From assembly GCF_025961575.1 (NCBI RefSeq), contig NZ_JAOQNX010000008.1:62001-126000 (forward strand): 64,000 bases of DNA, read 5' to 3'. The translations under genes were made by a program, and so were the position numbers. The stretch is from Rhodoblastus acidophilus. GTDB taxonomy: Bacteria > Pseudomonadota > Alphaproteobacteria > Rhizobiales > Beijerinckiaceae. Shown here piece by piece: positions 24,583 to 39,603 of this stretch (position 1 is the stretch's first letter; every line of letters begins with the position of its first letter). The notes under the pieces were generated by a model, which made no database searches, had not been told where the DNA came from, and was given only the letters and a program-made list of their open reading frames with translations.

Positions 24583-26139
24583 ATGCTCAAGCCGAACGTT
24601 AAAACGAACAGCTTTTTTCCGATTGTGGGACAGCGCGGCCCGCTCGCGGGAAGCCGCGGCCCGCTTATGGAAAGCCGCGGCCCACTTATGGAAAGCCGCG
24701 GCCCACTTATGGAAAGCCGCGGCGCTTGGCGGAGCGTCGGAAAAAGTCGCCTGCGCGTGAGCAGCAAGGCGGTGCTGGGCGCCTTCCCCGCCCTGCTCGC
24801 CACGCTCGACGCGTTCGTGATCGTCAACGCGGCCGTCCTCACATCCAGCCTCTATCATGGGTTTCGCAACGACCCGAGCGAGGCGGTCGGCGGCGAGGTG
24901 ACTCTCGCGCTTCTGATCGTCGCCCTTTATGTCGGGCAAAACCTGTTGCATGGCGTCTACCGCTTTCGCGACGTCTTGAGCGAAAAATTCAATTTTCCCG
25001 CGCTGCTCAGACGCTGGATCTACGCCTTCTTCATCGCCTCCGTGCTCGCCTTCGTCACGCGGAGCGGCGGCGAGATGTCGCGCGTGGCGACGCTTCTGTT
25101 TTTCGGCGTGGGCGCGGCGAGCCTGCTGGCGACGAGCCGCCTCGCCGCGCACGGGACGCGCGAATTGCTGCGCAATGGCGCGGTGTCCCTGAACCGGGTC
25201 TTCCTCGTCGGCTATGAAGAGGAAATCAAATCCTTCACCGAGCGCTACAAACCGTGGTCTCTCGGCATGGAGATCGTCACCGCCGCCGTTCTGCGCAACC
25301 AGGAAACCATCGCGGAGGATTTGCAGCTGGCGACGGCGACGGCGCGCATTTTCCAGCCTGACGACGTCTTCATTCTGCTGCCATGGCATGAGGTCGAGGC
25401 CATCGAGGCCTGCGTCGAAACCTTTTTGGGCTTGCCGACCTCGGTCCATCTGGGGCCGGACCGCATTCTCGAACGATTCAACGGCGCCACTCTCGACAAG
25501 GTCGGGCCGATCTCCAGCATTCGCCTGGTCCGCAGCCCGCTCAACGGCGTCGAGCTCATGATGAAGCGGGCTTTCGATCTGGTCGCCGCGGGCTGCGGCC
25601 TCGCCCTGCTGGCGCCGCTGTTCGCGCTCGTCGCGCTCGCCATCAAGCTCGAAAGTCCGGGGCCGGTGTTCTTCCGGCAAAGGCGCTACGGCTTCAATCA
25701 GCAGCCGTTCAGCATCTTCAAGTTCCGCTCCATGACCTGGCTGAAAGAGGGCGCGGACCTTCGCCAGGCGACCCGGAACGACGCGCGCGTCACCCGCGTG
25801 GGCCGTTTCATCCGGCGCACCAACATCGACGAATTGCCGCAGCTCATCAATGTCCTGCTCGGACAGATGTCGCTGGTCGGGCCGCGCCCGCACATTATGG
25901 CGCATGACCAGATGCTCGGCCGCGTCGTCAGCCAAGCCGCCCGGCGTCACAATGTGAAGCCCGGCATCACCGGCTGGGCGCAGGCGCACGGTTTTCGCGG
26001 CGAACTCGACAGCGGCGAAAAGCTGCGGGGCCGCATCGAACACGATCTCTACTACATCGACCACTGGTCGCTGTGGCTCGACATCAGAATCCTGTTCCTG
26101 ACCCTGTTCTCACGCCAGGCCTATCGCAACGCCTATTGA
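24583..26139 (+). CDS. Polyprenyl-phosphate sugar-1-phosphate transferase (WcaJ/WbaP-type)
   Basis: 518 residues. The N-terminus contains three exact copies of a seven-residue repeat (SRGPLME) not found in the family. Four membrane helices follow (about 60-165), then a soluble domain, a further helix (MMKRAFDLVAAGCGLALLAPLFALVALAIKLESPGPVFFRQRR) and the catalytic core IFKFRSMTW, RFIRRTNIDELPQLINVLLGQMSLVGPRP and KPGITGWAQAHGFRGEL. These are the signatures of enzymes that move a hexose-1-phosphate from UDP-sugar to undecaprenyl phosphate and thereby start capsule or O-antigen synthesis. It opens the glycan locus. Substrate sugar (glucose or galactose) cannot be read. Confidence 0.92.
   Translation: MLKPNVKTNSFFPIVGQRGPLAGSRGPLMESRGPLMESRGPLMESRGAWRSVGKSRLRVSSKAVLGAFPALLATLDAFVIVNAAVLTSSLYHGFRNDPSEAVGGEVTLALLIVALYVGQNLLHGVYRFRDVLSEKFNFPALLRRWIYAFFIASVLAFVTRSGGEMSRVATLLFFGVGAASLLATSRLAAHGTRELLRNGAVSLNRVFLVGYEEEIKSFTERYKPWSLGMEIVTAAVLRNQETIAEDLQLATATARIFQPDDVFILLPWHEVEAIEACVETFLGLPTSVHLGPDRILERFNGATLDKVGPISSIRLVRSPLNGVELMMKRAFDLVAAGCGLALLAPLFALVALAIKLESPGPVFFRQRRYGFNQQPFSIFKFRSMTWLKEGADLRQATRNDARVTRVGRFIRRTNIDELPQLINVLLGQMSLVGPRPHIMAHDQMLGRVVSQAARRHNVKPGITGWAQAHGFRGELDSGEKLRGRIEHDLYYIDHWSLWLDIRILFLTLFSRQAYRNAY
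24652..24725. repeat. 21-bp tandem repeat in the sugar transferase gene
   Basis: The unit AGCCGCGGCCCRCTTATGGAA occurs at 24652-24672, 24673-24693 and 24694-24714, with a partial fourth copy starting at 24715. It is in frame near the 5' end and encodes SRGPLME units in the cytoplasmic N-terminus, so copy number changes would leave the frame intact. Confidence 0.9.
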
Positions 26140-27959
26140 GCGGGGTCGGGCGCGATCATGTTTTCGGCCAGCTCCTCGCGCGACAGGAAAGGCGCCATGT
26201 CCTCGAGCGGCGCCGAGACCATGCGGCCATCCTCGAGCTTTCGCGACGACAGCTTTGGCGAGAAGGGCTGCTTGGGGTCGAGCATGATCTCGCAGATTTG
26301 CGGCCCCTCCCCGTCCAGCGTGGCGCGGATCGCGGCGTCGAGGTCTTGGTGCGCGCCGCAGCGGCGGGCCTCGATGCCGAACGCCGCGGCGACGCGCAAA
26401 AAGTCCGGGAACGTCACACCGTTCGTTGGGCCGCAGCCGTAAATATTGTCGGAAAAGAAGGCGCGCTGGGTCTGGATGATGGAATGATAGCCGTCGTTCG
26501 ACAGGACAAAAATCTTGATCGGCAGGTTCTGGCCGACAATGGTCTGCAGCTCCTGCAAGTTCATCATGATGCTGCCGTCGCCGGCGAGGCAGACGATGCG
26601 CCCGCCGGTGGCGTAATGGGCGCCGATCGCGGCCGGCAGGTCGTAGCCCATCGAGGCGCTGCCGGAATTGGAGAACAGCCGCTGCCCCGCTTTTATGCGC
26701 GCGGCCTGGAATGTGACCACGCAGGCCGTGGCGTTGGCGGTGACCACGACATCGTCGGATTCGAGCCGCTCGAACAGGTCGCGGGCGAAAACATAGGGGT
26801 TTACGGGCGCTTCGCTCTCCCGGTACGCCGGCAGCACCGTCGGATAGCGTTTGACGCGGGCGCGACACCAGTCGAGCCAGGCCGCATTGGCCGGCGAGGG
26901 CTCGTACGCATCGAGTTCGGCCAGCATCGCCTCGAAGAAATCCGCGAGGTCGGCATGGATGGGCGCGTCGATTTTTAGGGTCGGCTTGGCGAGTTCGGCC
27001 TTGTCGATATCCACCATCGCCTTGAAGGCCGAGCGGGCGAAGGCCGACCAGTTGTAGCTGATCTGGCGAATGTTGAGCCGGCAGCCGAGAACCAGCAGGA
27101 CGTCGGAATTTTGAACCGCGAAATTGCCGGCGCGGTCGCCGACGGTTCCGGGACGGCCGGCGTAGCAGGGGTGATCGTCGGCGACGAGGTCATGCGCATT
27201 GAACGCAGTGGCGACCGGAACGCCCAAACGCTCGATCACGCGCACAAAATTGTCGTAGGCGCCTGAGGCGCGCACACCGGTCCCCGGCATCAGCACGGGA
27301 CGCTCGGACGCCCGCAGTTTTTCGATCACTTCGCGAGCAACGGCCCTTAGCGCGTCGCCCTTGAGCGCCCCCTGCTCCACCGCGGGGACATCAGCCTCGC
27401 GAGGCTCAAAGCCGCGCAGAAAACTTTCGTCGACTTGCGCCCCCTGCACATCCACGGGCACGTCGATCCAGACCGGGCCAGGGCGGCCGTTCCCCGCCAG
27501 CCAGAGCGCCTTTTCGACCTCGTAGCGCACATCGTCAGGGTTTTGCAGGCAGACCGCGTATTTGACGACGGGGCGCGCCATGGCGACGATATCGACCTCC
27601 TGGTCGCCGAGCTGGCGCAGCGGCAGATCGAAATTCGCCATCAGCGTCTCGCGCTTGACCTGTCCGGAGACGACGATCATGCCCACGGAATCGGTATAGG
27701 CGCCAAAAACCCCGTTGAGGGCGTTGATGCCGCCGGGGCCGGTGGTGACATTGACCAGCGCGAGTTTTCCGCTCACCCGCGCGTAACCCTCCGCGGCCAT
27801 GGCGCAAGCCTGCTCATGGTGGAAGCAGACGGAGGTCAAGCCGGGGTGGCGCGTAAAACCGTCGTTGAGGTGCATGGCGCCGCCGCCGGTCACCAGGAAG
27901 GCGTGGGTGACGCCGCCCTCGACCAGACGGGCGGCGATATAGTCCGCCACACGGATCAT
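26133..27959 (-). CDS. Thiamine-pyrophosphate enzyme, acetolactate synthase-like (YerE-like candidate)
   Basis: 608 residues with the three-domain plan of TPP enzymes. The N-terminal PYR domain has catalytic Glu49 in CFHHEQACAMAAEGYAR and TTGPGGINALNGVFGAYTDS. The central domain is Rossmann-like (RPVLMPGTGVRASGAYDNF). The PP domain carries GDGSIMMNLQELQTI...NDGYHSI, the Mg-TPP motif. Amino-acid biosynthetic acetolactate synthase normally has a regulatory subunit, which is absent here. In this glycan locus, and with rfbFGH nearby, the closest pathway precedent is YerE, which transfers an acetyl unit from pyruvate to CDP-3,6-dideoxy-4-ketoglucose to form yersiniose. It lies 16 bp downstream of a NeuB-like gene. 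TPP enzyme: certain; YerE role: inference. Confidence 0.85.
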   Translation of the reverse strand: MIRVADYIAARLVEGGVTHAFLVTGGGAMHLNDGFTRHPGLTSVCFHHEQACAMAAEGYARVSGKLALVNVTTGPGGINALNGVFGAYTDSVGMIVVSGQVKRETLMANFDLPLRQLGDQEVDIVAMARPVVKYAVCLQNPDDVRYEVEKALWLAGNGRPGPVWIDVPVDVQGAQVDESFLRGFEPREADVPAVEQGALKGDALRAVAREVIEKLRASERPVLMPGTGVRASGAYDNFVRVIERLGVPVATAFNAHDLVADDHPCYAGRPGTVGDRAGNFAVQNSDVLLVLGCRLNIRQISYNWSAFARSAFKAMVDIDKAELAKPTLKIDAPIHADLADFFEAMLAELDAYEPSPANAAWLDWCRARVKRYPTVLPAYRESEAPVNPYVFARDLFERLESDDVVVTANATACVVTFQAARIKAGQRLFSNSGSASMGYDLPAAIGAHYATGGRIVCLAGDGSIMMNLQELQTIVGQNLPIKIFVLSNDGYHSIIQTQRAFFSDNIYGCGPTNGVTFPDFLRVAAAFGIEARRCGAHQDLDAAIRATLDGEGPQICEIMLDPKQPFSPKLSSRKLEDGRMVSAPLEDMAPFLSREELAENMIAPDPAQ

Positions 27960-27975
27960 GGAATGAAACTCCCGG

Positions 27976-29100
27976 TCAGCCGCGGGCCGCCAGCTTCAGC
28001 TGCGGTTGCGGCGCGTCGGCGGGCAGTCCGCGCGTCGCGATCATGGCCCGCAGCGCATCGTCGCCGGACCGCGCGCCGTCGACATTGTTGAAGCGCACGA
28101 CGCCGTCCGCCGCGACGGGGGCGCGCAGGACGTCGCCATGGGCGAGTTCGCGACAGGACATCTGGCCCTGCTGCAGCGGGATGGCGAGATAGACGTCGCC
28201 CGGGCCGATGACATGGCCCGCCGGAAGGTCGCGCTTGGCGTAAACGCCGCGCGCCAAAGCGTCGAGATAGGCGATTTCGCGCTGCGGCGGCGTACGCTTC
28301 ACCTTCCCGGAACCGCCGCACATTTCCTTGGCCTTGTTGAACGCCTTGAACCAGACGTCGACCTGGTGCGGCAGCGAGCAATAGGCGGAGACCGGGACGT
28401 TCTCATAGTCGATGTCGACGTGGCGCTCGAAGGTGCGCGCGCCCTTGGCGTAGGCCATCAGCAGCGACGCCTGCCAGTCGTGATATTCGTGGCTGGAAAA
28501 GCCGATCTCGTTGTCGGGATAACGGTTGATCAGGAAATCGATCTGGTTGAGTTCGAGATCGGCGTCCTCGCTCGGATAGAGCGAGACGCAGTGATTGATG
28601 GCGAGCGGAATGTCGCGGGCGTTGAAATAGGCGACGATGGCGTCGATTTCCGCCAGCGAGGCGCCGCCGGTGGAAATGATCACGGGTTTTTTCGTCGCAG
28701 CGATTTTCCCGATGAGATGCCAGTCCTTGATGTCGGAACTGGCGATCTTGATGATCTCCACGCCATATTCGACGCACTTTTCCACGGAGCGCTCGTCGAA
28801 CGGCGTCGCCATCGCCACCATGTCGTGGTCGCGCACGGCTTGGGTCAGCCAGCGGTAGCTCTCCCAGGGCATATGGGTGTCGAGCGTCTTCTTGACGTAG
28901 CGGATGTCGGCGCGGTCGCGGAAATCCTTGTGAATGAAACTGTCGACATCACGGAATTGCAGCTTCATGGCGGCGCGCACGCCATTGGCTCGGACGACGC
29001 GACCGTAATCCTGAACGATCTTCAATCCGCGCTCGAGCTTGCCCCAGTGATTCGAGGCGAGTTCAAGAACGAAGAGATCGGTGAAAATTGCGTCGCGCAC
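27976..29100 (-). CDS. N-acetylneuraminate synthase (NeuB) family protein with SAF domain
   Basis: About 374 residues. The TIM-barrel NeuB domain opens FVLELASNHWGKLERGLKIV and includes MKLQFRDVDSF, ATPFDERSVEKCVEYGVEIIKIASSDI, PVIISTGGASLAEI, LNQIDFLINRYPDNEIGFSSHEYHDW and RTFERHVDID. A C-terminal antifreeze-like SAF domain follows (RGVYAKRDLPAGHVIGPGDVYLAIP). NeuB enzymes condense phosphoenolpyruvate with an amino-hexose to make nine-carbon acids. GTG 29100 is chosen because GGGAGG precedes it at the right distance; the frame is open to 29190. The usual partners NeuC and NeuA are missing nearby, and the motif is SNHWG rather than the common NHNG, so the product may not be sialic acid. Confidence 0.85.
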   Translation of the reverse strand: MRDAIFTDLFVLELASNHWGKLERGLKIVQDYGRVVRANGVRAAMKLQFRDVDSFIHKDFRDRADIRYVKKTLDTHMPWESYRWLTQAVRDHDMVAMATPFDERSVEKCVEYGVEIIKIASSDIKDWHLIGKIAATKKPVIISTGGASLAEIDAIVAYFNARDIPLAINHCVSLYPSEDADLELNQIDFLINRYPDNEIGFSSHEYHDWQASLLMAYAKGARTFERHVDIDYENVPVSAYCSLPHQVDVWFKAFNKAKEMCGGSGKVKRTPPQREIAYLDALARGVYAKRDLPAGHVIGPGDVYLAIPLQQGQMSCRELAHGDVLRAPVAADGVVRFNNVDGARSGDDALRAMIATRGLPADAPQPQLKLAARG

Positions 29101-29387
29101 GCAGGGCCTCCCTTGAAAACACATGTACTGAACACGTCGCCCGGCGCGCCGATCTGCGGCCTTCGTCAAGCATTTGGGGCGTGCGCCCAACCGTCTCCGT
29201 CGACGAACCTTTTCAGCTTTAGGTTAAGAATTCCCTTTCGACGCTGCCCCTGCGTCAAAGCTTGCGCAAGGACGGTGAACGCTCCCTTCCTCCCTTCCAT
29301 GCGCGGCGTAACCCTGCATTTACCGTGGATGCCCCAAGGTCTTGGCTCGTCGCCGGCGGCGTTCGCGGCGGCGCGGAAAGGAAGCCG

Positions 29388-30323
29388 ATGAAAACCCTGA
29401 GCCTCGTGACGCCCTGTTACAACGAGGAGGCGGGCATCGCGGAATGCTACGAAGCCTGCCGAAACATCATGAGCGAACTGCCGGGCTACGCCTATGAGCA
29501 CGTCTTCATTGACAATTGCTCTGGGGACCGCACGGTGGCGATCCTCAAGGAAATCGCGGCCAGGGACAAGCGGGTCAAGATCATCGTCAACGCCCGCAAT
29601 TTTGGCCACGCGCGTTCGCCGCACCACGCGATGTTGCAGGTCGACGGCGACGCCGTCATTCCCGTCCTCGCCGACCTGCAAACGCCGCCCGCGCTCATCC
29701 CGGAAATGGTGCGCGCGTGGGAGGAGGGTTATAAAGTCGTCGTCGCGGTCCGCGAGAACGCCGGCGCCGGCTCGCCGCCGGTCGCACTGGCGCGAAAACT
29801 GTTCTACAGCCTGATCCGCAAGATTTCGAACGTCGAACAAATCCCCAATTACATCGGCTATGGCCTCTACGACCGTCGCGTGATGGATGTCATGCGCACG
29901 CTTTACGAACCCGACCCGTATTTTCGCGGCCTGGTCCCCGAAATCGGCTTCGAGCGCAAGGTGGTCGCCTATCACCAGCCCGAGCGCAAGCATGGGACGT
30001 CGCGGCACAGTATCTTTGACCTCGTCGACTACGCCCTGACCGGAATCACCACATTTTCGAAGGCGCCGATGCGGCTGATGACCGTCGTCGGTTTCGTCGC
30101 GGCCTGCCTCAGCTTCGCCTTCGGCTTTCTCTACCTCATCGCCAAATTGCTGTTCTGGAGCAGCATCCCCTTCGGCGTCGCGCCGATCCTGATCGCCGTG
30201 TTCATGCTCGGCTCGATCCAGCTTCTGGCGCTGGGCCTGCTCGGCGAATATGTCGGCGTGCTCCTGCAATATGCGCGGCGCTTCCCGCTGGTGGTCGAGA
30301 AGGAGCGGGTGAATTTCGATTGA
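29388..30323 (+). CDS. Family 2 glycosyltransferase with C-terminal membrane helices (GtrB-like)
   Basis: 311 residues. The GT-A domain begins LSLVTPCYNEEAGIAECYEACRNIM. FIDNCSGDRTVAILKEIAARD and VIPVLADLQTPPALIPEMVRAW (the DxD-like DLQ motif) are characteristic of the dolichol-phosphate mannosyltransferase/GtrB group. Two C-terminal membrane helices (about 225-290) anchor it. Such enzymes load a sugar from a nucleotide donor onto undecaprenyl phosphate. ATG 29388 has GGAAAGGA upstream. It is divergent from the NeuB-like gene and convergent with the methyltransferase gene. A GtrA-type flippase gene is encoded nearby, which fits a lipid-linked sugar donor system. Confidence 0.9.
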   Translation: MKTLSLVTPCYNEEAGIAECYEACRNIMSELPGYAYEHVFIDNCSGDRTVAILKEIAARDKRVKIIVNARNFGHARSPHHAMLQVDGDAVIPVLADLQTPPALIPEMVRAWEEGYKVVVAVRENAGAGSPPVALARKLFYSLIRKISNVEQIPNYIGYGLYDRRVMDVMRTLYEPDPYFRGLVPEIGFERKVVAYHQPERKHGTSRHSIFDLVDYALTGITTFSKAPMRLMTVVGFVAACLSFAFGFLYLIAKLLFWSSIPFGVAPILIAVFMLGSIQLLALGLLGEYVGVLLQYARRFPLVVEKERVNFD

Positions 30324-30329
30324 AGGTGG

Positions 30330-31373
30330 TCAGTCGAGCAGTTCCGAGATCGGAATGATCCGGGCGACGCGCGCGCCGAACCGCTGCTCGATCTCGGCGC
30401 GGATCGGCGCCTCGAACTCCAGCGAATTGATCAATACCGTCCAGTCCGACCCCGCCCCCAACGCCTCCGGCCCGCGAACCGGCGCGCCCAATCGAAGGCT
30501 GGCCTGCTTGCCTTCGTCCTTGTCGATGAAAAAGGCGATGCGCGCGGGGTCGAAATAATGGGCCAGCATTTCCTCGACCATGCGGCCGGCGCCCCAGACC
30601 ACGACCTTGTCCACGCCGGCGAGCTTCGGGTGATCCGACAGAATTGACGGATCGGCGCGCAAAGGCGCGGGTCGGCGGGCGAGGACGCGCAGGGAATCGG
30701 AATAGCGCTCATCGAGCCGCGCGCCGGTTTCCGCGACACGGGTTTCCAGGCCGTGCCGCGCCAGCAGGCGCGTCAGCGAGGAAACGCCGAAGAAATGGAT
30801 GTGCGAACGGTTGTCGTCGAAGGGCAGGCGCGCATGGCCGCCGCGATGCGGCACCTCAAGAAACAGCGCGGCCTCGGGCTTCATCACCCGCAACATGGCG
30901 GCGATCACGTCCGAGGGCGAATCGAGATGTTCGAGGCAATGGGAGGACAGGACGAGGTCGTAACTCGCCGCCTCGACCTCGCCCGACGCGAGCAGGTCTT
31001 CGACGGGCTTGGCGAAGACGCGGTCCATGCGCGTCGCGGCTATGTCGCGGGCCGGGGAGAACTCGACGCCGTGATAGGCGGAAAAGGTCTTGCGACGCCG
31101 CAACGCCTCCGCGAGGTCGCCCGCGGCGCAGCCGATTTCCAGCGCGCGCGCGCCGTCGGCGATGTGGGGCGCGACAAAGCCGGCCTGCGCGGCGAGGCGC
31201 TCCGGCGTGCGTCCCGCGCCGCCCATGGCGAAGCCCTTGTAGTCGAATGGCTCGACATCGATGCGCTGCGAATGATGGCACGACGGACAAAAGGTCCGCC
31301 GCAAGCCGCCGATGGTGAAAATCTCCGGTTCGGGAAGGCCGCAGACGGCGCAGACCACGGGCAACTCATACAT
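30330..31373 (-). CDS. Class I SAM methyltransferase with N-terminal zinc-binding motif
   Basis: 347 residues. Cys8, Cys11, Cys29 and Cys32 (CAVC...CPSC) form an N-terminal zinc site. The SAM-binding core reads RALEIGCAAGDLAEAL and YDLVLSSHCLEHLDSPSDVIAAMLRVMKP. A C-terminal Rossmann-like domain follows (VDKVVVWGAGRMVEEMLAHYF). The arrangement zinc site, methyltransferase, C-terminal domain resembles NDP-sugar C-methyltransferases such as TylC3/NovU, which methylate C3 of 4-keto-6-deoxy sugars. It is the last gene of the rfbF-initiated operon and overlaps the radical SAM gene by 8 bp. A role in decorating the deoxysugar is likely but the target atom is unknown. Confidence 0.82.
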   Translation of the reverse strand: MYELPVVCAVCGLPEPEIFTIGGLRRTFCPSCHHSQRIDVEPFDYKGFAMGGAGRTPERLAAQAGFVAPHIADGARALEIGCAAGDLAEALRRRKTFSAYHGVEFSPARDIAATRMDRVFAKPVEDLLASGEVEAASYDLVLSSHCLEHLDSPSDVIAAMLRVMKPEAALFLEVPHRGGHARLPFDDNRSHIHFFGVSSLTRLLARHGLETRVAETGARLDERYSDSLRVLARRPAPLRADPSILSDHPKLAGVDKVVVWGAGRMVEEMLAHYFDPARIAFFIDKDEGKQASLRLGAPVRGPEALGAGSDWTVLINSLEFEAPIRAEIEQRFGARVARIIPISELLD

Positions 31374-32409
31374 GAGGCTCTCCTGGGGCGCGCCGCCGCC
31401 GGTAGACTTCGGGGTCGAGATCGTCGAGATTGTCCGGTGAGGTGTGGAGATACGTGCAGTTCTTGCAGGCCGGATGCGATCCCGCCCGCCGTTCGAGCTG
31501 CATCATCTGGAATTCGCGGAGCGGTTCGCCGCGCCAGATTTCCGCCAGCGTCCGCGCGCGCAGGTCGCCGACAACGGCTTCCTTCGCCCAGTCGACACAG
31601 CAGACGCTGACGCGCAGGTCCGAATGCACGACAAGCGAGTAGAAGGGGAAAGGGCAGACCTGCTTGCGCTGACTAAAAAAGGACGAGTCCAGCCGCTGTT
31701 GCCGCGAGATGAGCGAGAGGTCGCCCTCATCGGGATCGTTCCAGTTCATCGCCGGCTCGATCGTCACCTCGTCGCCGATGTCGCGGAATGTCGACAGGAA
31801 CTGGCTGTTCTCCTCGGGCGAACCGGAATCGATCATCTTCACGTAAACAAACGTGGCAGCGCCCATTTCGTCGCGCCATTGGCGGAACCGGGCGACATTC
31901 TCCACCACGCGATCCAGCGCAATCTTGCCCTGGGTCGTCCGGGCGTAGGACTCAGGCGTGCCGCCGTAGATGGAAACGCGCAGGTAATCGAGACCGGCCG
32001 CGAGGATTCGCCGCGACACGTCCTCCTTGAGCAAGGTGCCATTGCTGGTGATGGTGATGCGTTCGGCGATGTCCTTCCGCCTGGCGATCCGCACGAATTC
32101 AGGCAATTCGCGATTCACGAAGGGTTCGCCCAGCATGTAGAGGTTCAGCGACTTGATCCGCCCCAACTCCCTGACCTGGTCCGCCAGCAGGTCGAAGGCC
32201 CGCGCGTCCATGCGGTGGAGCCCCCCGCTTCTCTCCTCGAAATTGTCGAAGGATTCAGGGCAGTAAACGCAGCGGAAGTTGCAGATGTTGGTCGGCTCGA
32301 CGAAGAGCGTCAGCGGCGCCGGCAGGGGCGCCGCCTCGCTCAGCGATTGGCGCGGCGCCTGGCGAAGCTCGCTGTAGCGGAGCGGTTGAGAAGCGGCGTG
32401 TTCGGTCAC
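31366..32409 (-). CDS. Radical SAM/SPASM protein in glycan operon
   Basis: 347 residues. The cluster motif is C43-x3-C47-x2-C50 (CNFRCVYC), preceded by LFVEPTNI. YMLGEPFVNREL corresponds to the SAM-binding GGE-type segment. The C-terminal SPASM part has CPFPFYSLVVHSDLRVSVCCVDWAKEAVVGDL and CKNCTYLH, enough Cys for at least one auxiliary cluster. The family includes enzymes of sugar, peptide and tRNA modification. Four-base overlap with gtrA upstream and an 8-bp overlap with the methyltransferase downstream show it belongs to the sugar operon. The substrate is unknown; a nucleotide or lipid-linked sugar is plausible from context. Confidence 0.85.
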   Translation of the reverse strand: MTEHAASQPLRYSELRQAPRQSLSEAAPLPAPLTLFVEPTNICNFRCVYCPESFDNFEERSGGLHRMDARAFDLLADQVRELGRIKSLNLYMLGEPFVNRELPEFVRIARRKDIAERITITSNGTLLKEDVSRRILAAGLDYLRVSIYGGTPESYARTTQGKIALDRVVENVARFRQWRDEMGAATFVYVKMIDSGSPEENSQFLSTFRDIGDEVTIEPAMNWNDPDEGDLSLISRQQRLDSSFFSQRKQVCPFPFYSLVVHSDLRVSVCCVDWAKEAVVGDLRARTLAEIWRGEPLREFQMMQLERRAGSHPACKNCTYLHTSPDNLDDLDPEVYRRRRAPGEPHV

Positions 32410-32837
32410 GTGGCGCGGGTCCTCTCGATGGGTTTCGAGGCGAAGACGAAAGAACGGTTGAGCGCGTAGGAGATGAGCACCGCGCCCGGCAGGAGCAGCA
32501 ACCCCGCCAGCCCCGCGTCGACGCCCGCCGCCTGGAAGATTGTCAGGCCCGCGGCGTTGTAGAGATAGACGATCACGTAGACGCCAAAGAAGGGGAGAAG
32601 ACGCCGCCGCTCGGTGTTGCGAAAGACAAGGCCGCCCGTCGTCATGAAGTTGAACAGGATGGCGAGAATGGTCGAAAACGTCAGCGCGAACATCGGCGCG
32701 CCGCTCAACCGCAGCACCGTGTAAAATAGCCCGAAGCCAAAGAGCGTGTTGAAGCCGCCCACCACCAGGAAGCGCAGAAAACGCACATCAAGACAGCGCT
32801 TCGCCGCCAGCAGGGCGCGGGACATCAGGCCCATCAT
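32406..32837 (-). CDS. GtrA family membrane protein (putative lipid-linked sugar flippase)
   Basis: About 143 residues with four membrane helices: RFLVVGGFNTLFGFGLFYTVL, MFALTFSTILAILFNFMTTGGLVF, FFGVYVIVYLYNAAGLTIFQ and LLLLPGAVLISYALNRSFVFAS. The opening RFLRFLVVGGFNTLFGFGLFY and the final YALNRSFVF are classic GtrA features. GtrA proteins are proposed to flip undecaprenyl-phosphate-linked sugars across the inner membrane. It overlaps the stop of the upstream membrane protein gene by 4 bp and the downstream radical SAM gene start by 4 bp. Two adjacent ATG codons (32837, 32834) are possible starts. Confidence 0.85.
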   Translation of the reverse strand: MMGLMSRALLAAKRCLDVRFLRFLVVGGFNTLFGFGLFYTVLRLSGAPMFALTFSTILAILFNFMTTGGLVFRNTERRRLLPFFGVYVIVYLYNAAGLTIFQAAGVDAGLAGLLLLPGAVLISYALNRSFVFASKPIERTRAT

Positions 32838-34414
32838 CGCGGCCCCGGTTGCGCGGCGGCCGTCGTCTCCGCCGACGTGAACACGGGATGATCCGGCCAG
32901 CACCAATTCGTCCCCACGGTTTCGAACACGGCATCGGCGGGCGGCGCAATCAACAGCCACGCGGGCGCGCGACGGATCGAGTCGATGTAATTGGTCGGCA
33001 GGCCCGCGGGACTGAGCTGCCGGCTGGCGGTGACGAGGTTGCAGGCGCTCGCCGTCCATTTCGGTTCAAGCAGCGCGATGCCGAAGGCGATCAAAGCCTT
33101 GGCGGCGCCGATGACGATGATGAGGACGCCGATAACGCGCGCAAGCTTCTGTTCCGGCTTCAACTCCAGGAAGACGGCGCTGAACAAGAAGGCGACCACG
33201 AACAGCGGCGCGGTGGCGCCGCGCATGGTGAAGTCATTGCTCGGCCCGAAGCTGTAGAGCGGCAAAAGCGCGAGCATGAGCGCGGCGATGACGAGCAGCG
33301 GCTTCCAGTCGTCGCGAATCTTCGGCCAGAGCGCGGCGAGAAAGACCACATGGACAAGCTCGACCAGCACGAACAGGGCATAGGTCGGCCAGAAATCGGC
33401 GTTCTCGAGCGGCGACCCATGCCGGATCGCGCCCGCGCCCGCGACGAGATAGAGGGCCACGGGGACAAAGCAGGCGCCGAAAGCGGCGCCGACGGCGAGG
33501 CGCGCCCAGGCGACGGCCTTGCGATCCCGCCATGCGAGATAAAGCATGAAAGGCGCGGCGAGCAAGGGGGCGAGCGGCGACCACAGCAGCAGCGCGGCGA
33601 AAACACCGCCGAGCGTGGCGAGATCGATCTCGCGCCGCGCCGCGAACAGAGCAAGGACAGCAAAGAACCAGCCGCAAATGGCGTGGTTGGGCACGAAGCA
33701 AATCTGGGTGAAATGGTCCGTGTATTGAAAATAGGAGGCCCACCAGTTCACATCGCGGGCGGGCAAGGCCCAGGCGCCCGTCCGCATAGCGTCGAGGACC
33801 ATGCCTCCCATCCAGGGCAGGATGTCGAACCCGCCGTAGAGGACCAGCAGATAGGCCATCGCGCGGCCCGAACTCATGGCGCCCGCGAGATAGAAGATCA
33901 GGGCGAACATCAGCGCGTTCTGGGTCAGCATCGCCAGATGCGCGGCGTGGAGGCCGAGCCCCTGCCCGATCAGGCCGGGGATCATGTACATGCCGAGCGG
34001 CGCGCGCAGATAGAAGGCGTCGCCGTCGATCCTGTAGAACACCGGCCAACCGTGCCGGACGATGTCGGCGAGCACGGCGTCGCGCGTCAGCCAGTCGTCG
34101 GTGGTGAAGAAGAAATGGCCTTCGCCGCCGAGCACGACGACGACGAAACCGAGCGCGAGACAAGCGAGCAGCAAGCCGCCGTTCACCGGCGCGTCGAGCG
34201 CGCCGCCATCCACGCGACCCCGGGCGGAAAACAGCAGCGCGGTGACGCCGGCGCAGCCAAGCAGCACGATGATGGCTGCGGGTAGCGCCAATCCCGCCGC
34301 CCAGACGGCGTTGCCGGCGACAAACACCAGTGCGCCCGCGTTGAGCAAAGTGCGATTGGAGAGGCTCAAGGTTTTCGCGCGCGCCGACGCGGCGGGAAGA
34401 GCGGCCTCGGTCAC
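32834..34414 (-). CDS. Large multispan membrane protein, probable GT-C-type glycosyltransferase
   Basis: About 526 residues with roughly 11-12 hydrophobic segments. A first extracytoplasmic loop reads GHFFFTTDDWLTRDAVLADIV, with paired Asp residues as in GT-C enzymes, and FYLRAPLGMYMIPGLIGQG follows. No family signature beyond this is clear to me. GTG 34414 is the likely start, since GGAGC is placed upstream and the gene then begins 2 bp after rfbH ends. Together with GtrA and a GtrB-like enzyme it would complete a gtrABC-type module, in which the large membrane protein transfers the lipid-linked sugar to a glycan in the periplasm. That role is inferred from context and topology. Confidence 0.65.
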   Translation of the reverse strand: MTEAALPAASARAKTLSLSNRTLLNAGALVFVAGNAVWAAGLALPAAIIVLLGCAGVTALLFSARGRVDGGALDAPVNGGLLLACLALGFVVVVLGGEGHFFFTTDDWLTRDAVLADIVRHGWPVFYRIDGDAFYLRAPLGMYMIPGLIGQGLGLHAAHLAMLTQNALMFALIFYLAGAMSSGRAMAYLLVLYGGFDILPWMGGMVLDAMRTGAWALPARDVNWWASYFQYTDHFTQICFVPNHAICGWFFAVLALFAARREIDLATLGGVFAALLLWSPLAPLLAAPFMLYLAWRDRKAVAWARLAVGAAFGACFVPVALYLVAGAGAIRHGSPLENADFWPTYALFVLVELVHVVFLAALWPKIRDDWKPLLVIAALMLALLPLYSFGPSNDFTMRGATAPLFVVAFLFSAVFLELKPEQKLARVIGVLIIVIGAAKALIAFGIALLEPKWTASACNLVTASRQLSPAGLPTNYIDSIRRAPAWLLIAPPADAVFETVGTNWCWPDHPVFTSAETTAAAQPGPR

Positions 34415-34416
34415 GG

Positions 34417-35757
34417 TCAGGCGCTCCGTCGCGCAGGCAGGACGAGCGCCTCTTTGATGGCGCTGATCATATGGTCGATATGACCGGCCTCCAGGCCCGG
34501 ATAGACCCCGATCCAAAAGGTGCGGTCGACGACAATATCGGCATTGTCGAGCGCGCCCGCGATGCGGAAATTCTGGCCGATCATATAGGGCTGGCGCACG
34601 AGATTGCCGCCAAACAGCAGCCGCGTGCCGATCCTTTGCGCGTTCAAATGCTGCACCAGCCCGTCGCGCGACACCGGCGCAGTCTCGCGCAGCGTGATCG
34701 GAAAGCCGAACCAGGAGGGCTCGGTTCCAGCGGTGGCTTCCGGCAGGATCAAGACGTCGTTGAGCGCGCGCAAACCGTCTGTCAGGCGGTCGAAATTGCG
34801 GCGTCGGGCGTCGATGAAATCGTCGAGGCGATCGAGCTGCGCGAGACCCACGGCCGCCTGCATATCGGTGATCTTCAGATTGAAGCCGAGATGCGAATAG
34901 ACATATTTGTGGTCGTAGCCCCTTGGGAGATCGCCGAGCTTCCAGCCATAGCGCTTGTTGCACGTGGCGTCCTTGCCGGGCGCGCAATAGCAGTCGCGGC
35001 CCCAGTCGCGAAAACTCTCCATGATTTTCGCCAGCAGCGGATTGTCGGTGAAGACGGCCCCGCCCTCGCCCATGGTGATGTGGTGGGCGGGATAAAAGCT
35101 CAGCGTGCCGATGTCGCCGAAGGTCCCGACATGTTTGCCGTCGACCGTCGCCCCGAGCGCGTCGCAGCAATCCTCAATCAGCCACAGACCATGCTTATCG
35201 CACAGGGTTTTGATGGCCTTGACGTCGAATGGGTTTCCCAGCGTGTGCGCGACCATCACCGCCTTGGTTTTGGGTCCGATGGCGGCTTCGAGCGCGGCGA
35301 CGTCGATGTTGTAGGTGGGAATGTCGACATCGACGAAAACCGGAACGGCGCCCCACAAAATCGCGGGATTGACCGTGGTGGGAAAGCCGGTGGCGCAGGT
35401 GATGACTTCATCGCCGGGCTTGATCTGGCGCTCCTTCAAACGCGGCGAGGTCAGCGCCGAAAAGGCGACGAGATTGGCGGAAGACCCGGAATTGACGGTG
35501 AGCGCGGAGCGGACCCCGATGCGGGCGGCGAGTTTGTTCTCAAAATCCGCGTTGAAGCGCCCGGTGGTCAACCAAAAGTCCAGCGCGGAATCGACCAATG
35601 TCTGCATTTCGCGCGCGCCATAGACGCGGCCAGACACTGGGACGCTTGCGCCGGGCGCAAAAGCCGGCTGGCGATGGGCGAGCTCGTGATAGCGCCCGAC
35701 CAGCTCAAGAATTTGCGCGCGCAAACCTTCGGCTTCAGGCGATTCGTTGGGCTTCAT
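34417..35757 (-). CDS. rfbH: CDP-4-keto-6-deoxyglucose-3-dehydrase (E1, RfbH/DdhC)
   Basis: 446 residues, aminotransferase-like fold. In place of the PLP-lysine it has His225 in [13 protein letters not shown], the known hallmark of E1, which uses PMP and does not transaminate. The [2Fe-2S] ligands are present in the exact E1 spacing: Cys198-x57-Cys256-x1-Cys258-x7-Cys266 (IEDCCDA and [12 protein letters not shown]). The enzyme removes the C3 hydroxyl of CDP-4-keto-6-deoxyglucose and, with reductase E3, gives CDP-4-keto-3,6-dideoxyglucose. ATG 35757 is preferred and overlaps rfbG by 23 bp. No E3 gene is in the window. Identification is strong because every cofactor residue is conserved. Confidence 0.95.
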
Positions 35758-36862
35758 GGTCGTCCCGCGCATTGGAGAAGGGGGAGGTCAGGCGCACGCG
35801 CTGACCGAGATAGGCGTCGATCTGCCCAAAAGTGTGCGCGCGCATGTCGGCGCCGTCGGCGTGGGCGCGATACCAGCGCGCCGTCCATTCCACCGTCTCG
35901 TCAAAACTCAGCAGCGGCTTCCAACCGAGTTTTTCCCGGGCCTTGCTGGCGTCGAGCCGCAACAGGCCGGCCTCGTGCGGATGCGCGGCGCGATCCGGCA
36001 GCCAGCGCGCCTCCGGTCCCCAGGCGGCCATGAAGCGGGTGAGCAAGGCTTCCACATCCTGTTCGCTTTCGGCGCCCGGTCCGAAATTCCAGCCGTCGGC
36101 AAAGCCTGCGCCCTGCAGCGCCGCCTTTTGCGCGAGCATGAGATAGCCGGACAGGGGTTCCAGCACATGCTGCCAGGGCCGCACCGATTTGGGCGCGCGC
36201 ACCTCGACCGGACGTCCCGCGCGAAAGGCGCGCACGGCGTCGGGCAGGATGCGGTCGGGCGCAAAATCCCCTCCCCCGATCACATTTCCGGCGCGCGCCG
36301 TCGCGACGGTCGCCCCCTGTTCAAAGAAGGAGGCGCGATAGGAGGCGGTGACCAGTTCGGCGCAGGCCTTGCTGTTGGAATAGGGATCGCGTCCGCCAAG
36401 CGCATCGGTCTCGCGATAGCCCCAGATCCAGTCGCGATTGTCGTAGCACTTGTCGGTGGTGACGTTCACCAGCGCCTTCAGATTCTTGCAGGCGCGCGCG
36501 GCTTCGAGCACATGCACGCAGCCCATGACATTGGTCTGGAAGGTCGCGACCGGATCGGCATAGCCCTGCTTCACCAGCGGCTGCGCGGCCATGTGGATGA
36601 CGATGTCCGGATCGGCGGCGACCATGGCGCGGCGCAAATTTTCGAAATCGTTGATGTCGCCGCGCAAATCCTCGAGCGTGGCGCCGACCGACAGCAGGTC
36701 GAACAGGGATGGATTGGTCGGCGGCGCCAGGGCGTAACCCGTGGTCTCCGCATTCAGCCGCGCCAGCATCAGCGACAGCCACGCGCCCTTGAACCCCGTA
36801 TGTCCCGTGACAAAAACGCGCCGACGGCGCCAGAAGCTGGAATCGATCACCACACTCTCCAT
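35735..36862 (-). CDS. rfbG: CDP-glucose 4,6-dehydratase
   Basis: 375 residues, extended SDR fold. NAD binding is by [14 protein letters not shown] (Gly20, Gly23, Gly26). The active site has Thr136-Asp137-Lys138 (VTTDKCYDN) and the Tyr161-x3-Lys165 pair ([12 protein letters not shown]). [24 protein letters not shown] and [14 protein letters not shown] are typical of CDP-glucose rather than dTDP-glucose dehydratases. It converts CDP-glucose to CDP-4-keto-6-deoxyglucose, the substrate of RfbH. ATG 36862 overlaps the end of rfbF by 16 bp and its own 3' end overlaps rfbH, so the three genes are translationally linked. Confidence 0.95.
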
Positions 36863-37617
36863 GGCGCGGCGCCGCTCGCCCAATGGTCTTCGAGAAAAAT
36901 CTTGTCGCGCAGCGTGTCCATCGGCGACCAGAAACCGGGATGGACGAAGGCCTGCAGCTGCCCTTGCGCCGTCAGCCGGTTCATCGGCTCGCGCTCCCAT
37001 ACGGTGTCGTCGCCCTCGATCAGGTCGCAGACTTTCGGCGACAGCATGAAGAAGCCGCCGCTGATCCAGCCGCCCTCGTCATCCGGCTTTTCGGTGAAGG
37101 CGGTGACGCGCTCGCCATCGAGGAGCAGGGTGCCAAAACGCTTGGCGGGCCGCACCGCTGTCACGGTCGCAAGCTTGCCATGCGCGCGATGAAAGGCGAG
37201 TTGCGCGGTGAGGTCGACATTGCCGACGCCGTCGCCATAGGTGAGCGCAAACACCTCATCGTCAGCGACATAATCGCGAATGCGCTTGATGCGCCCGCCG
37301 GTCATGGTCTGCTCGCCGGTGTCGATCAGCGTGACCCGCCAAGGCTCCGCCATCTCCCGATGCACTTCCATTCTGTTGGCGCGCATGTCGAAGGTGACGT
37401 CGGACATATGCAGAAAATAGTTCGAGAAGAACTCTTTGATGTAATAGCCCTTGTATCCCAGGCAGATCACGAATTCATTGAACCCGTGCGCCGAGTAGAT
37501 TTTCATGATGTGCCAGAGGATGGGGCGTCCGCCGATTTCGACCATCGGCTTTGGACGAATCGCCGTCTCCTCGGCGAGCCTCGTGCCCATCCCGCCGGTC
37601 AGGATCACCACTTTCAT
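36847..37617 (-). CDS. rfbF: Glucose-1-phosphate cytidylyltransferase
   Basis: 256 residues, standard length. The nucleotidyltransferase signature MKVVILTGGMGTRLAEET with Lys23 (RPKPMVEIGGRPILWHIM) is complete. ALTYGDGVGNVDL is the metal-binding segment. FGTLLLDGERVTAFTEKPDDEGGWISGGFFML and WEREPMNRLTAQGQLQAFVHPGFWSPMDTLRDK are specific to CTP-dependent glucose-1-phosphate cytidylyltransferases. It makes CDP-glucose, the entry point to CDP-dideoxyhexoses. It is the first gene of a seven-gene minus-strand operon; its promoter must lie in the 160-bp gap shared with the divergent GT-C gene. Confidence 0.95.
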   Translation of the reverse strand: MKVVILTGGMGTRLAEETAIRPKPMVEIGGRPILWHIMKIYSAHGFNEFVICLGYKGYYIKEFFSNYFLHMSDVTFDMRANRMEVHREMAEPWRVTLIDTGEQTMTGGRIKRIRDYVADDEVFALTYGDGVGNVDLTAQLAFHRAHGKLATVTAVRPAKRFGTLLLDGERVTAFTEKPDDEGGWISGGFFMLSPKVCDLIEGDDTVWEREPMNRLTAQGQLQAFVHPGFWSPMDTLRDKIFLEDHWASGAAPWRVW

Positions 37618-37776
37618 TGAATCATACTCGCGGCCAGCAAGGGCTGTTGTGCCCGAATCAGCATGACTGACGCGGCGTAAAGGATCGGTTAAGCCTGTCA
37701 GGCGCTTGCGCCAGCGAACGCGCGTAAGCGTTCCTTAAGCCGGGCCTGCGAGAACGTTGAGCGTTTGGGAGGCCGC

Positions 37777-39603
37777 GTGACGCAACTGACCGCAACCGGG
37801 ACCGCTGGCGTCCGATCCGCTGGGGCGAGCTTTGCCTGGCTCGCCTTCCTGCTGGCGCTCGCCGCTTATTTCGGCCTGGGCGCGGATCGGATCGTCGAGG
37901 TCTGGCGGACCGGCGCCTATCACGACACCGACGACGCCATGCGCATGGTTCAGGTGCGCGATCTGCTCGCGGGCCAGGCCTGGTACGATATGACCGCCTG
38001 GCGCCTCGACCCGCCCAATGGCATGTTCTCGCACTGGTCGCGCGTCGTCGACGCGCCGCTCGCCGCGCTCATCCTGCTGTTTCGCACGTTTCTCGATGGC
38101 GCGCAGGCGGAACGCGCGGCGCGCATCGTCTTTCCCGCGCTGATGACGCTGGGGCTGTTCGGCGCGGGGTTTTACGCCGCGCGTATTTTCGCCGGCCGCT
38201 CGATGCGGCTGTTCGGCCTCGCCGCCATGCTGTTCTGCGGCGTGCTGTTCTGGCAGTTTCCCGCGGGACGGGTCGATCACCACGCGCCGCAGATCGTTGC
38301 GCTGCTGGCGGCGGTGGCGGCGATGGCGGCCTGTTTCGGCAGGGCTGACGCGCGCGGGCCGGCGGCCGTGTCGGGCGCGATGACCGCGCTGAGCCTGTCC
38401 ATCGGCCTGGAAAATCTGCCTTTCCTCGCGCTGGTCGCCGCGGCGCCGGCCATTCTGTTCGTCATGCGCGGCGCGGAGGCGCGCCAAACCCTTGTTGGCT
38501 TCGCGCTCGGCCTCGCCGGCGCGCTCATTCCGCTTTATCTGGCGACGGTCGGCCCGCAGCGCTGGCTTATGCCGGCCTGCGACGCGCTTTCGGGGCCTTA
38601 TCTGTTCGCCTGTCTCGGCGGCTGCATCGCTTATCTTGGCGTCGCCTGGTTCGGCGGCGCCGCGCTTTGGCGGCGTTTGGCGCTGGTGGCGCTCGCCGGG
38701 CTTTTGGCGGCGGCGCCGCTCAGCCTGATGCCGCGCGCCTGCCTGAGCGATCCCTATTACGGCATGGACGCGCTGGTGCGCAGCTATTGGCTGGTCCCAA
38801 ACCCTGAAGTGATTTCGATCCTGCGGCAGGCGCAAGTCGACGGGCATCTGGCGCTGATGCTGTTCGTCCCCACGCTGGTCGGCCTGTTGGCGGCCCTGTT
38901 CGGCGCCGCAACGACGGCCGGCGCGGCGCGCGCCCGCTGGAGTTTTTTGGCGACCCAAGTCGCGCTCGGCCTCGCCCTGGGCTCCCTGCATGTGCGGGTG
39001 TTTGCAACCGTCATGCCGCTCGCCGCGATTGGCCTGCTGGCGCCGGTCGCGTGGATTCGCCAAAAGCTCGAAGCCGCCGTCTCCGAGCAGACGCGCCCCC
39101 TGATCGGCGGCCTCTCCGGCCTTGTCGCCCTATTCGCCCTCTCCTCCATGGGGCTGATGGTCGAGCTGCCGGAAGGCGCCTTCGCCGCGGCGCCCAAACC
39201 CGACCGCTGCATGAAGTCGGAAACCTACGCGGCCCTGCGCGACCTGCCGCCCGGCGTCGCGGCGTCGATGATCTCGCCCGGCGCCTATCTGCTGGCGGAG
39301 ACGAAGCTGAGCGCATTGGCTGGCCCCTACCATCGCAACAGCCACGGCAACCGCGCCGCCCTGGACATTCTGTTCGCCAAGCCCGACGCGGCCGAGACTT
39401 TTGCCCGCGCGGCGGGGGTGCGCTACGTCATTCTGTGCTGGGACCGTCCGGATGCGGCGGCCTCATGGACGCAATGGGGTCCCGGCGGCCTGGCGGAGCA
39501 GATCATCGAAGGCGCAATTCCCCGTTGGCTGCGTCCGATCCCCGTCGAAAACACGCCCGCCCGCGTGTTCGAGATTGTGAAGCCGGGACAGGCGGCGAAC
39601 TGA
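37777..39603 (+). CDS. Large GT-C-like integral membrane protein
   Basis: About 608 residues with a dozen or more membrane helices and a soluble C-terminal region of about 130 residues (KPDRCMKSETYAALRDLPPGVAASMISPGAYLL). The first extracytoplasmic loop, YHDTDDAMRMVQVRDLLAGQAWYDMTAWRLDPPNGMFSHWSR, has the acidic DD motif and overall look of GT-C enzymes of the oligosaccharyltransferase/GT39 type. GTG 37777 is preferred because GGGAGG stands just before it. It is divergent from rfbF and ends the glycan locus. It may transfer a lipid-linked sugar in the periplasm. Exact family and acceptor are not recognised. Confidence 0.65.
   Translation: MTQLTATGTAGVRSAGASFAWLAFLLALAAYFGLGADRIVEVWRTGAYHDTDDAMRMVQVRDLLAGQAWYDMTAWRLDPPNGMFSHWSRVVDAPLAALILLFRTFLDGAQAERAARIVFPALMTLGLFGAGFYAARIFAGRSMRLFGLAAMLFCGVLFWQFPAGRVDHHAPQIVALLAAVAAMAACFGRADARGPAAVSGAMTALSLSIGLENLPFLALVAAAPAILFVMRGAEARQTLVGFALGLAGALIPLYLATVGPQRWLMPACDALSGPYLFACLGGCIAYLGVAWFGGAALWRRLALVALAGLLAAAPLSLMPRACLSDPYYGMDALVRSYWLVPNPEVISILRQAQVDGHLALMLFVPTLVGLLAALFGAATTAGAARARWSFLATQVALGLALGSLHVRVFATVMPLAAIGLLAPVAWIRQKLEAAVSEQTRPLIGGLSGLVALFALSSMGLMVELPEGAFAAAPKPDRCMKSETYAALRDLPPGVAASMISPGAYLLAETKLSALAGPYHRNSHGNRAALDILFAKPDAAETFARAAGVRYVILCWDRPDAAASWTQWGPGGLAEQIIEGAIPRWLRPIPVENTPARVFEIVKPGQAAN

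Follow-up and report, generated by a model that had tools for sequence, protein, structure and literature searches.

In this study, we describe a sugar cassette in a stretch of 64,000 nucleotides from Rhodoblastus acidophilus (contig NZ_JAOQNX010000008.1 of assembly GCF_025961575.1, positions 62,001 to 126,000; here called the window). Its core is a pair of genes encoding a YerE-like, thiamine diphosphate (ThDP) dependent C-C ligase for branching at C-4 (26133..27959) and a NeuB-like synthase (27976..29100), the proposed maker of a 2-keto-3-deoxy acid donor. Positions are those of the window, and genes lie on the minus strand unless marked. We consider it likely that the cassette serves the synthesis of a 3,6-dideoxyhexose with a branch of more than two carbons at C-4. 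The first-pass annotation of this DNA had proposed a yersiniose-like sugar with a two-carbon branch. Judged by sequence comparison this is probably wrong, as the linkage of NeuB to YerE-like genes and the mutual exclusion of NeuB and aldolases beside such genes would favour a longer keto acid as donor. NeuB is the best candidate for its supply.

The NeuB-like gene, whose start was set by comparison with the sister locus L068, is separated from the YerE-like gene by 16 bp, both on the minus strand. Among 149 genomes of the family, the NeuB subfamily of the window (E <= 1e-69) occurs in nine, and all nine are found among the 11 YerE-like-positive genomes (p 7e-13); the NeuB and the YerE-like samples, 149 genomes each, were taken as identical, their handles agreeing as far as listed. 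The remaining two positive genomes carry a more distant NeuB beside the YerE-like gene (G028) and an HpaI aldolase with a dehydroquinate (DHQ) synthase-like gene (G035). A YerE-like gene is absent from four genomes that possess distant NeuBs only (G010, G066, G110 and G120, E 1.4e-22 to 1.5e-23). Among 398 genomes of the phylum, the subfamily (E <= 1e-71) is present in 13, and 11 of these 13 are YerE-like-positive versus 25 of 398 overall (p 4e-13); G393, G447, G554 and G671 possess distant NeuBs only and are not YerE-like-positive. By these genome scans the NeuB subfamily of the window is tied to YerE-like enzymes.

The surroundings of YerE-like genes were surveyed in 40 loci from genome samples and, among named genomes, in the loci of the best 80 of 596 relatives. 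The last ten named-genome loci (L178-L187) were taken as acetolactate synthase controls, giving 110 YerE-like loci; a YerE-like gene fragment (G127:C187) stands outside the set. Donor enzymes were counted up to 6 kb from the YerE-like gene, and 83 of the 110 loci are flanked by 3 kb or more in both directions. Aldolase families were assigned by Pfam on representatives and, for the remaining loci, by BLAST to those. NeuB is present in 30 of the 83 full-flank loci, an aldolase in 27 (HpaI alone in 9, HMGL-type alone in 15, both types in 3) and a transketolase subunit in one. NeuB and an aldolase occur together in none of the 83 (Fisher p 1.9e-7, no correction for descent). Both sources are concordant, with NeuB in 14/29 genome-sample loci and 16/54 named-genome loci, and none of these donor enzymes (NeuB, aldolase or transketolase subunit) was found in the ten control loci, of which six are likewise flanked by 3 kb or more in both directions. 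Counted over all 110 loci, NeuB lies near the YerE-like gene in 35, on the same strand in 34 of them; 12 of these NeuBs are of the short type seen in the window, 19 are long and 4 classical. On a quick tree of 121 rows NeuB changes 8 times and aldolase 15 times. A descent-corrected test of exclusivity on this material, in which the transketolase locus L079 was scored as donor-free, had five independent pairs on starred branches; on average 3.4 of them changed in opposite directions and none in the same direction.

The precursor of the proposed sugar is well accounted for. RfbF, a glucose-1-phosphate cytidylyltransferase (36847..37617; TIGR02623, 434 bits, cut-off 300), RfbG, a CDP-glucose 4,6-dehydratase (35735..36871, with the open reading frame (ORF) open from 37000; TIGR02622, 474 bits, cut-off 278), and RfbH, an E1-type dehydratase of the 3-deoxy step (34417..35772; NF011936, 723 bits, cut-off 423), each score above the NCBIfam equivalog cut-off in a profile search. 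RfbH carries the cysteine motif C203-X57-C261-X-C263-X7-C271 and His230 within FYPAHH; a histidine in place of lysine together with C-X57-C-X-C-X7-C is what we take to be the E1 signature. The families of the three proteins are established, and the earlier assignment of a CDP-4-keto-3,6-dideoxyglucose route with conserved E1 residues is supported at the level of sequence. The reactions of these enzymes lead to CDP-4-keto-3,6-dideoxy-D-glucose, which RfbF, RfbG and RfbH would thus provide as acceptor.

Condensation of phosphoenolpyruvate (PEP) with an aldehyde by NeuB-type enzymes yields a 2-keto-3-deoxy acid, and the NeuB-like protein of the window would make its donor in this way. On thiamine diphosphate the YerE-like enzyme would decarboxylate the 2-keto-3-deoxy acid and transfer what remains, an acyl chain, onto the C4 position of the CDP-sugar, which would then bear a tertiary alcohol and a ketone in the branch. 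A 2-keto-3-deoxy acid decarboxylated and added to C4 puts a CH2 at position 2' of the branch, so that the predicted branch, after reduction of the ketone, reads CH(OH)-CH2-CH(OH)-R with the 2'-deoxy carbon coming from PEP. Some relatives hint at the nature of the aldehyde. Three NeuBs scanned from YerE-like loci carry a further, fused domain: a cupin domain that weakly matches lyxose isomerase in L071 (10844-12376) and L074 (10938-12722), and in L073 (3960-5858) a barrel of the xylose-isomerase-like kind. These fusions suggest an aldose as the acceptor of NeuB.

Reduction of the branch ketone may be the task of a short-chain dehydrogenase/reductase (SDR) encoded at G000:C32:13881-14906, directly after fabI; the role is suggested by gene linkage in relatives. 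By BLAST, the window contains none of the reductase types of other loci besides rfbG. At E <= 1e-60 the SDR is present in 6 of 119 family genomes (its own, G071, G019, G028, G077 and G089), every one of them YerE-like-positive. The SDR match lies within 120 bp of the YerE-like match in G071, G028, G077 and G089, and 4.3 kb away in G019. The Fisher value of 8e-9 for this association presumes that G073 and G035 belong to the 119-genome sample, which the listing does not show. In nine chosen genomes, at least two of them already within the 119-genome scan, a search at E <= 1e-30 found the SDR in three: in G119 it adjoins the YerE-like gene, in G482 it is roughly 8 kb from it, and in G123 (87%) the two are on different contigs. 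The same-genus genomes G143, G033 and G100, which have no YerE-like gene, gave no SDR match at E <= 1e-30.

Several observations weigh against the longer branch or limit the evidence for it. Because the loci were selected for resembling the window enzyme, their proportions are not rates for the whole YerE-like family. The descent-corrected test of exclusivity is underpowered (median p 0.25). No recognised donor enzyme is found in 25 of the 83 full-flank loci, so that pyruvate use may be common; two such loci, L123 and L128, fall inside the wider clade of the window on a careful tree of 35 rows. The subfamily NeuBs of G476 and G643 come without a YerE-like match at E <= 1e-76, and in G530, G538 and G584 the NeuB and YerE-like genes are on separate contigs. 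In the window no gene was recognised as supplier of the aldehyde for the NeuB-like enzyme. The SDR candidate is unlinked to the cassette, and the YerE-like-positive genomes G073, G127 and G035 gave no SDR match at E <= 1e-30. Of the two reductases that the first-pass annotation named for its route, a branch-ketone SDR came up as this unlinked candidate (YerF was not among the compared sequences), whereas no AscD/DdhD (E3) reductase was assignable. The genome search for the latter returned generic reductases only, with 4 FAD_binding_6 and 8 Fer2 matches; the sole protein combining Fer2, FAD and NAD domains is BenC-like (contig C22, 122 bits against a cut-off of 430). Yersinia YerE is not among the rows of our trees. 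Lastly, no paper treating YerE and NeuB together was found in a search that covered no subscription papers on YerE-like clusters, where the link may be printed.

The first alternative is a true yersiniose-type route, with pyruvate as donor of the YerE-like enzyme, a two-carbon branch and a NeuB serving some other purpose. Pyruvate is the preferred donor of YerE itself and gives a two-carbon branch (PMC12247030), and the donor-free loci, L123 and L128 in particular, fit such a route. We nevertheless regard it as unlikely. It leaves unexplained why the NeuB-like gene stands 16 bp from the ligase gene, why the nine family genomes with the subfamily are YerE-like-positive without exception, and why NeuB and aldolases avoid each other in the full-flank loci. 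In addition, L081, L103 and L106, three loci that have an SDR but lack an aldolase, branch deeply, apart from the window.

A less probable explanation is that NeuB has no role in branching and instead produces a nonulosonic (sialic-like) acid as a distinct sugar of this glycan. In its favour, the NeuB-like protein has NeuB and SAF domains (PF03102, 130 bits; SAF, 26 bits). It shares the Pfam family and catalytic-type residues with the NeuB/PseI nonulosonate synthases and with the SpsE-like structure 3g8r. Residues E13, K46, Q48, K118, S121, S143, H204, E225 and H227 are common to all groups compared, namely the consensus of 11 short, 20 long and 4 classical NeuBs, 3g8r and PseI 8h2c; T99 is Ser in 8h2c. 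The conserved residues are of the PEP- and metal-site type and belong to the evidence for the proposed donor synthase. In contrast to the NeuB/PseI synthases, the protein of the window remains far below both equivalog cut-offs, with 119 bits for PseI (cut-off 340) and 109 bits for NeuB (cut-off 400). No candidate for a CMP-nonulosonate synthetase (NeuA) was found in the genome, in which one CTP_transf_3 match is over the cut-off and one below; the protein over the cut-off is most simply KdsB. A nonulosonic acid product is unlikely because of these low scores and the single CTP_transf_3 protein over the cut-off, and the route was disfavoured on that account. The co-occurrence of the NeuB subfamily with YerE-like genes likewise argues against it.

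The structure nearest to the NeuB-like protein is 3g8r (34.9% identity over 332 columns), deposited in the PDB as a probable spore coat polysaccharide biosynthesis protein E. It is 97.9% identical to the NeuB of L154 (Chromobacterium sinusclupearum), and the ORF of that NeuB shares 9 bp with a YerE-like ORF. Going by its listing, the sole paper matching 3g8r in the literature searched is about T cell receptors.

The same gene pair would also be expected if the YerE-like enzyme came first and NeuB then acted on an aldehyde group in its branched product, and the order of steps is not readable from sequence. This is very improbable on chemical grounds, since, as is well established, the product of YerE carries a ketone and, as long as it is linked to the nucleotide, has no free aldehyde; moreover, NeuB alternates with aldolase families that usually produce keto acids. 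We prefer the order in which NeuB supplies the keto acid and the YerE-like enzyme transfers its acyl chain.

The thiamine enzyme itself is by class a YerE-like ketone ligase and not an acetolactate synthase, as judged from its sequence relationships. It carries three TPP-enzyme domains with a GDG motif at 460, and the closest solved structure is JanthE (8rph; 420 bits over residues 2-602), the next PDB match scoring 240 bits. In the 35-row tree, 25 YerE-like rows including the window protein and JanthE are split from 10 acetolactate synthase rows with 100/100 support. The earlier assignment as YerE-type rather than IlvB-type is supported. Grouping with biosynthetic acetolactate synthases, the outcome that the first-pass annotation had set against its own proposal, was rejected in an approximately unbiased (AU) test on the 35 chosen rows (p-AU 1e-50). 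The 121-row tree places 16 acetolactate synthase rows on one side of a branch with support 100, although here the long branch of seven YerE-like rows around L075_Y2 meets the acetolactate synthase branch. Left out of this tree were L025, L033, L034 and L037 (wrong-frame acetolactate synthase rows of a 133-row tree) as well as L002, L027, L104, L166, L171, L180, L182 and L187; L070, L125, L173, L174 and L175, with ORFs below 500 amino acids (aa), are in no tree. An acetolactate synthase paralogue, for which it speaks that the best NCBIfam model is the large subunit of the biosynthetic enzyme, can be dismissed with near certainty: the model matches with 312 bits against a cut-off of 538, an IlvB-like protein only 28% identical is separately encoded (G000:C27), and tree and AU test reject it.

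JanthE is described as YerE-like, has a CDG motif where the window enzyme has GDG, and is without identified physiological substrates (PMC12188165). Four loci group with JanthE; L098, L161 and L167 contain DmpG and acetaldehyde dehydrogenase, and L097 no recognised partner. Plasmid records yielded no match to the YerE-like protein at E 1e-75, nor to NeuB at E 1e-30.

Concerning the layout of the cassette, all previously named genes were found in place. Seven minus-strand genes, mutually overlapping at their ORF ends, run from 37617 down to 30330 in the order rfbF, rfbG, rfbH, membrane protein, gtrA, radical S-adenosylmethionine (SAM)/SPASM gene and methyltransferase gene. Between the methyltransferase and the NeuB-like gene lies a glycosyltransferase family 2 (GT2) gene in the opposite direction (29262..30323, plus strand; PF00535). 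A Bac_transf gene for an exopolysaccharide-type sugar transferase (24583..26139, plus strand) converges on the YerE-like end of the cassette. The GT2 gene, the membrane protein gene (32834..34420) and gtrA (32406..32990) were missing from the first-pass annotation. Divergent from rfbF, a 612-aa protein that is hydrophobic by eye and without Pfam match is encoded at 37765-39603.

GT2 is presumed to be an undecaprenyl-phosphate sugar synthase; it resembles PgfS (190 bits, cut-off 500) and ArnC (133 bits, cut-off 529), below both cut-offs. The GtrA-like membrane protein (PF04138, 52 bits, cut-off 26) is the presumed flippase of a lipid-linked sugar. The resemblance of GT2 to PgfS and ArnC together with the presence of GtrA suggests that the sugar is transferred by the undecaprenyl-phosphate route, on which GT2 and GtrA, perhaps with the polytopic membrane protein, would deliver it to a surface glycan. 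The latter protein has no Pfam or NCBIfam match. Its AlphaFold model is of moderate quality (mean predicted local distance difference test score 69, from 5 sequences), and its best PDB match is the GT-C enzyme ALG12 (E 2e-3, probability 1.00, template modelling score 0.36), with none at E <= 1e-3; this model weakly hints at a GT-C type glycosyltransferase as one possibility.

The presence of NeuB-like and radical SAM genes, as previously stated, was borne out, the latter encoding a protein with PF04055 and PF13186 domains (31366..32409). The radical SAM gene has no match in the closest sister locus L068 and therefore looks accessory. In the same region L068 contains a TylF-type methyltransferase gene (5755-6522). 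The presumed sugar-tailoring methyltransferase of the window (30330..31373; PF13489, Methyltransf_23) has homologues in L068 (81%) and L072 (67%). As to the zinc-methyltransferase of the first-pass annotation, a CxxC zinc-type motif is present near the N-terminus, but no Pfam zinc-domain model matched.

Other YerE-like loci showed further neighbours. In L079 and L080 a transketolase-subunit-like gene and an SDR gene lie beside the YerE-like gene. An HMGL-type family of 534 aa is encoded in L118 (7685-9289) and 14 further loci, mostly from Bacillota; it accounts for 15 of the 54 loci then without recognised donor, and a HAD phosphatase family is present in 8. DHQ-synthase-like genes lie near the YerE-like gene in L078, L082, L100, L101, L113, L125 and L142, in each case accompanied by an HpaI aldolase and an SDR, and also in L109, L133 and L150; the copy of L078 scores 277 bits against TIGR04425 (cut-off 400). 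Such an enzyme may cyclise the branch to a carbocycle-fused sugar, of which bradyrhizose is an example. A YerE-like gene with NeuB is present in L146, on a contig titled Altiarchaeota, and a YerE-like gene in L149, on a contig titled Pacearchaeota.

Among known systems, YerE of the yersiniose A pathway of Yersinia pseudotuberculosis is, by description, alike in the CDP-3,6-dideoxy-4-keto-D-glucose precursor and the described ThDP ligase subclass (PMC12247030). Unlike that system, the window has a NeuB-like gene 16 bp from the ligase gene and an unlinked reductase candidate. ErwE of erwiniose and MMAR_2332 of caryophyllose are described as YerE-like enzymes whose donors are longer, hydroxylated 2-oxo acids; for ErwE these are preferably 4-hydroxy-2-oxo acids, and pyruvate is not accepted (PMC12247030). 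Caryophyllose is a 3,6-dideoxy-4-C-(1,3,4,5-tetrahydroxyhexyl) sugar (PMC5706390). Its C2' is therefore deoxy, the pattern expected of a PEP-derived chain. The accessible literature on Mycobacterium lipooligosaccharides gives this structure, and an annotation of the neighbours of MMAR_2332 was not found in it. More than 200 YerE-like enzymes are predicted, and for the vast majority a sugar structure is lacking (2025 review, PMC12247030). In a search on the names of three branched sugars and neuB, none of the matches listed contains both a sugar name and neuB.

YerE-like branching is thus already known, and the new element may be NeuB as a donor module, perhaps in print elsewhere. On balance, we are inclined to believe that a branch of the NeuB family has been recruited to provide alpha-keto acids as donors in a thiamine-dependent umpolung transfer to nucleotide sugars. 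The general platform would combine a conserved ligase with an exchangeable donor module (NeuB, NeuB-isomerase-like fusion, HpaI, DmpF/DmpG or other HMGL-type aldolases) that sets the length of the branch, and the sugar of the window would be an undescribed higher-carbon branched dideoxy sugar. If this is true, a function as such a donor synthase is suggested for the structure 3g8r, and provided that the neighbouring enzyme reveals the donor, the length of the branch would become predictable from sequence.

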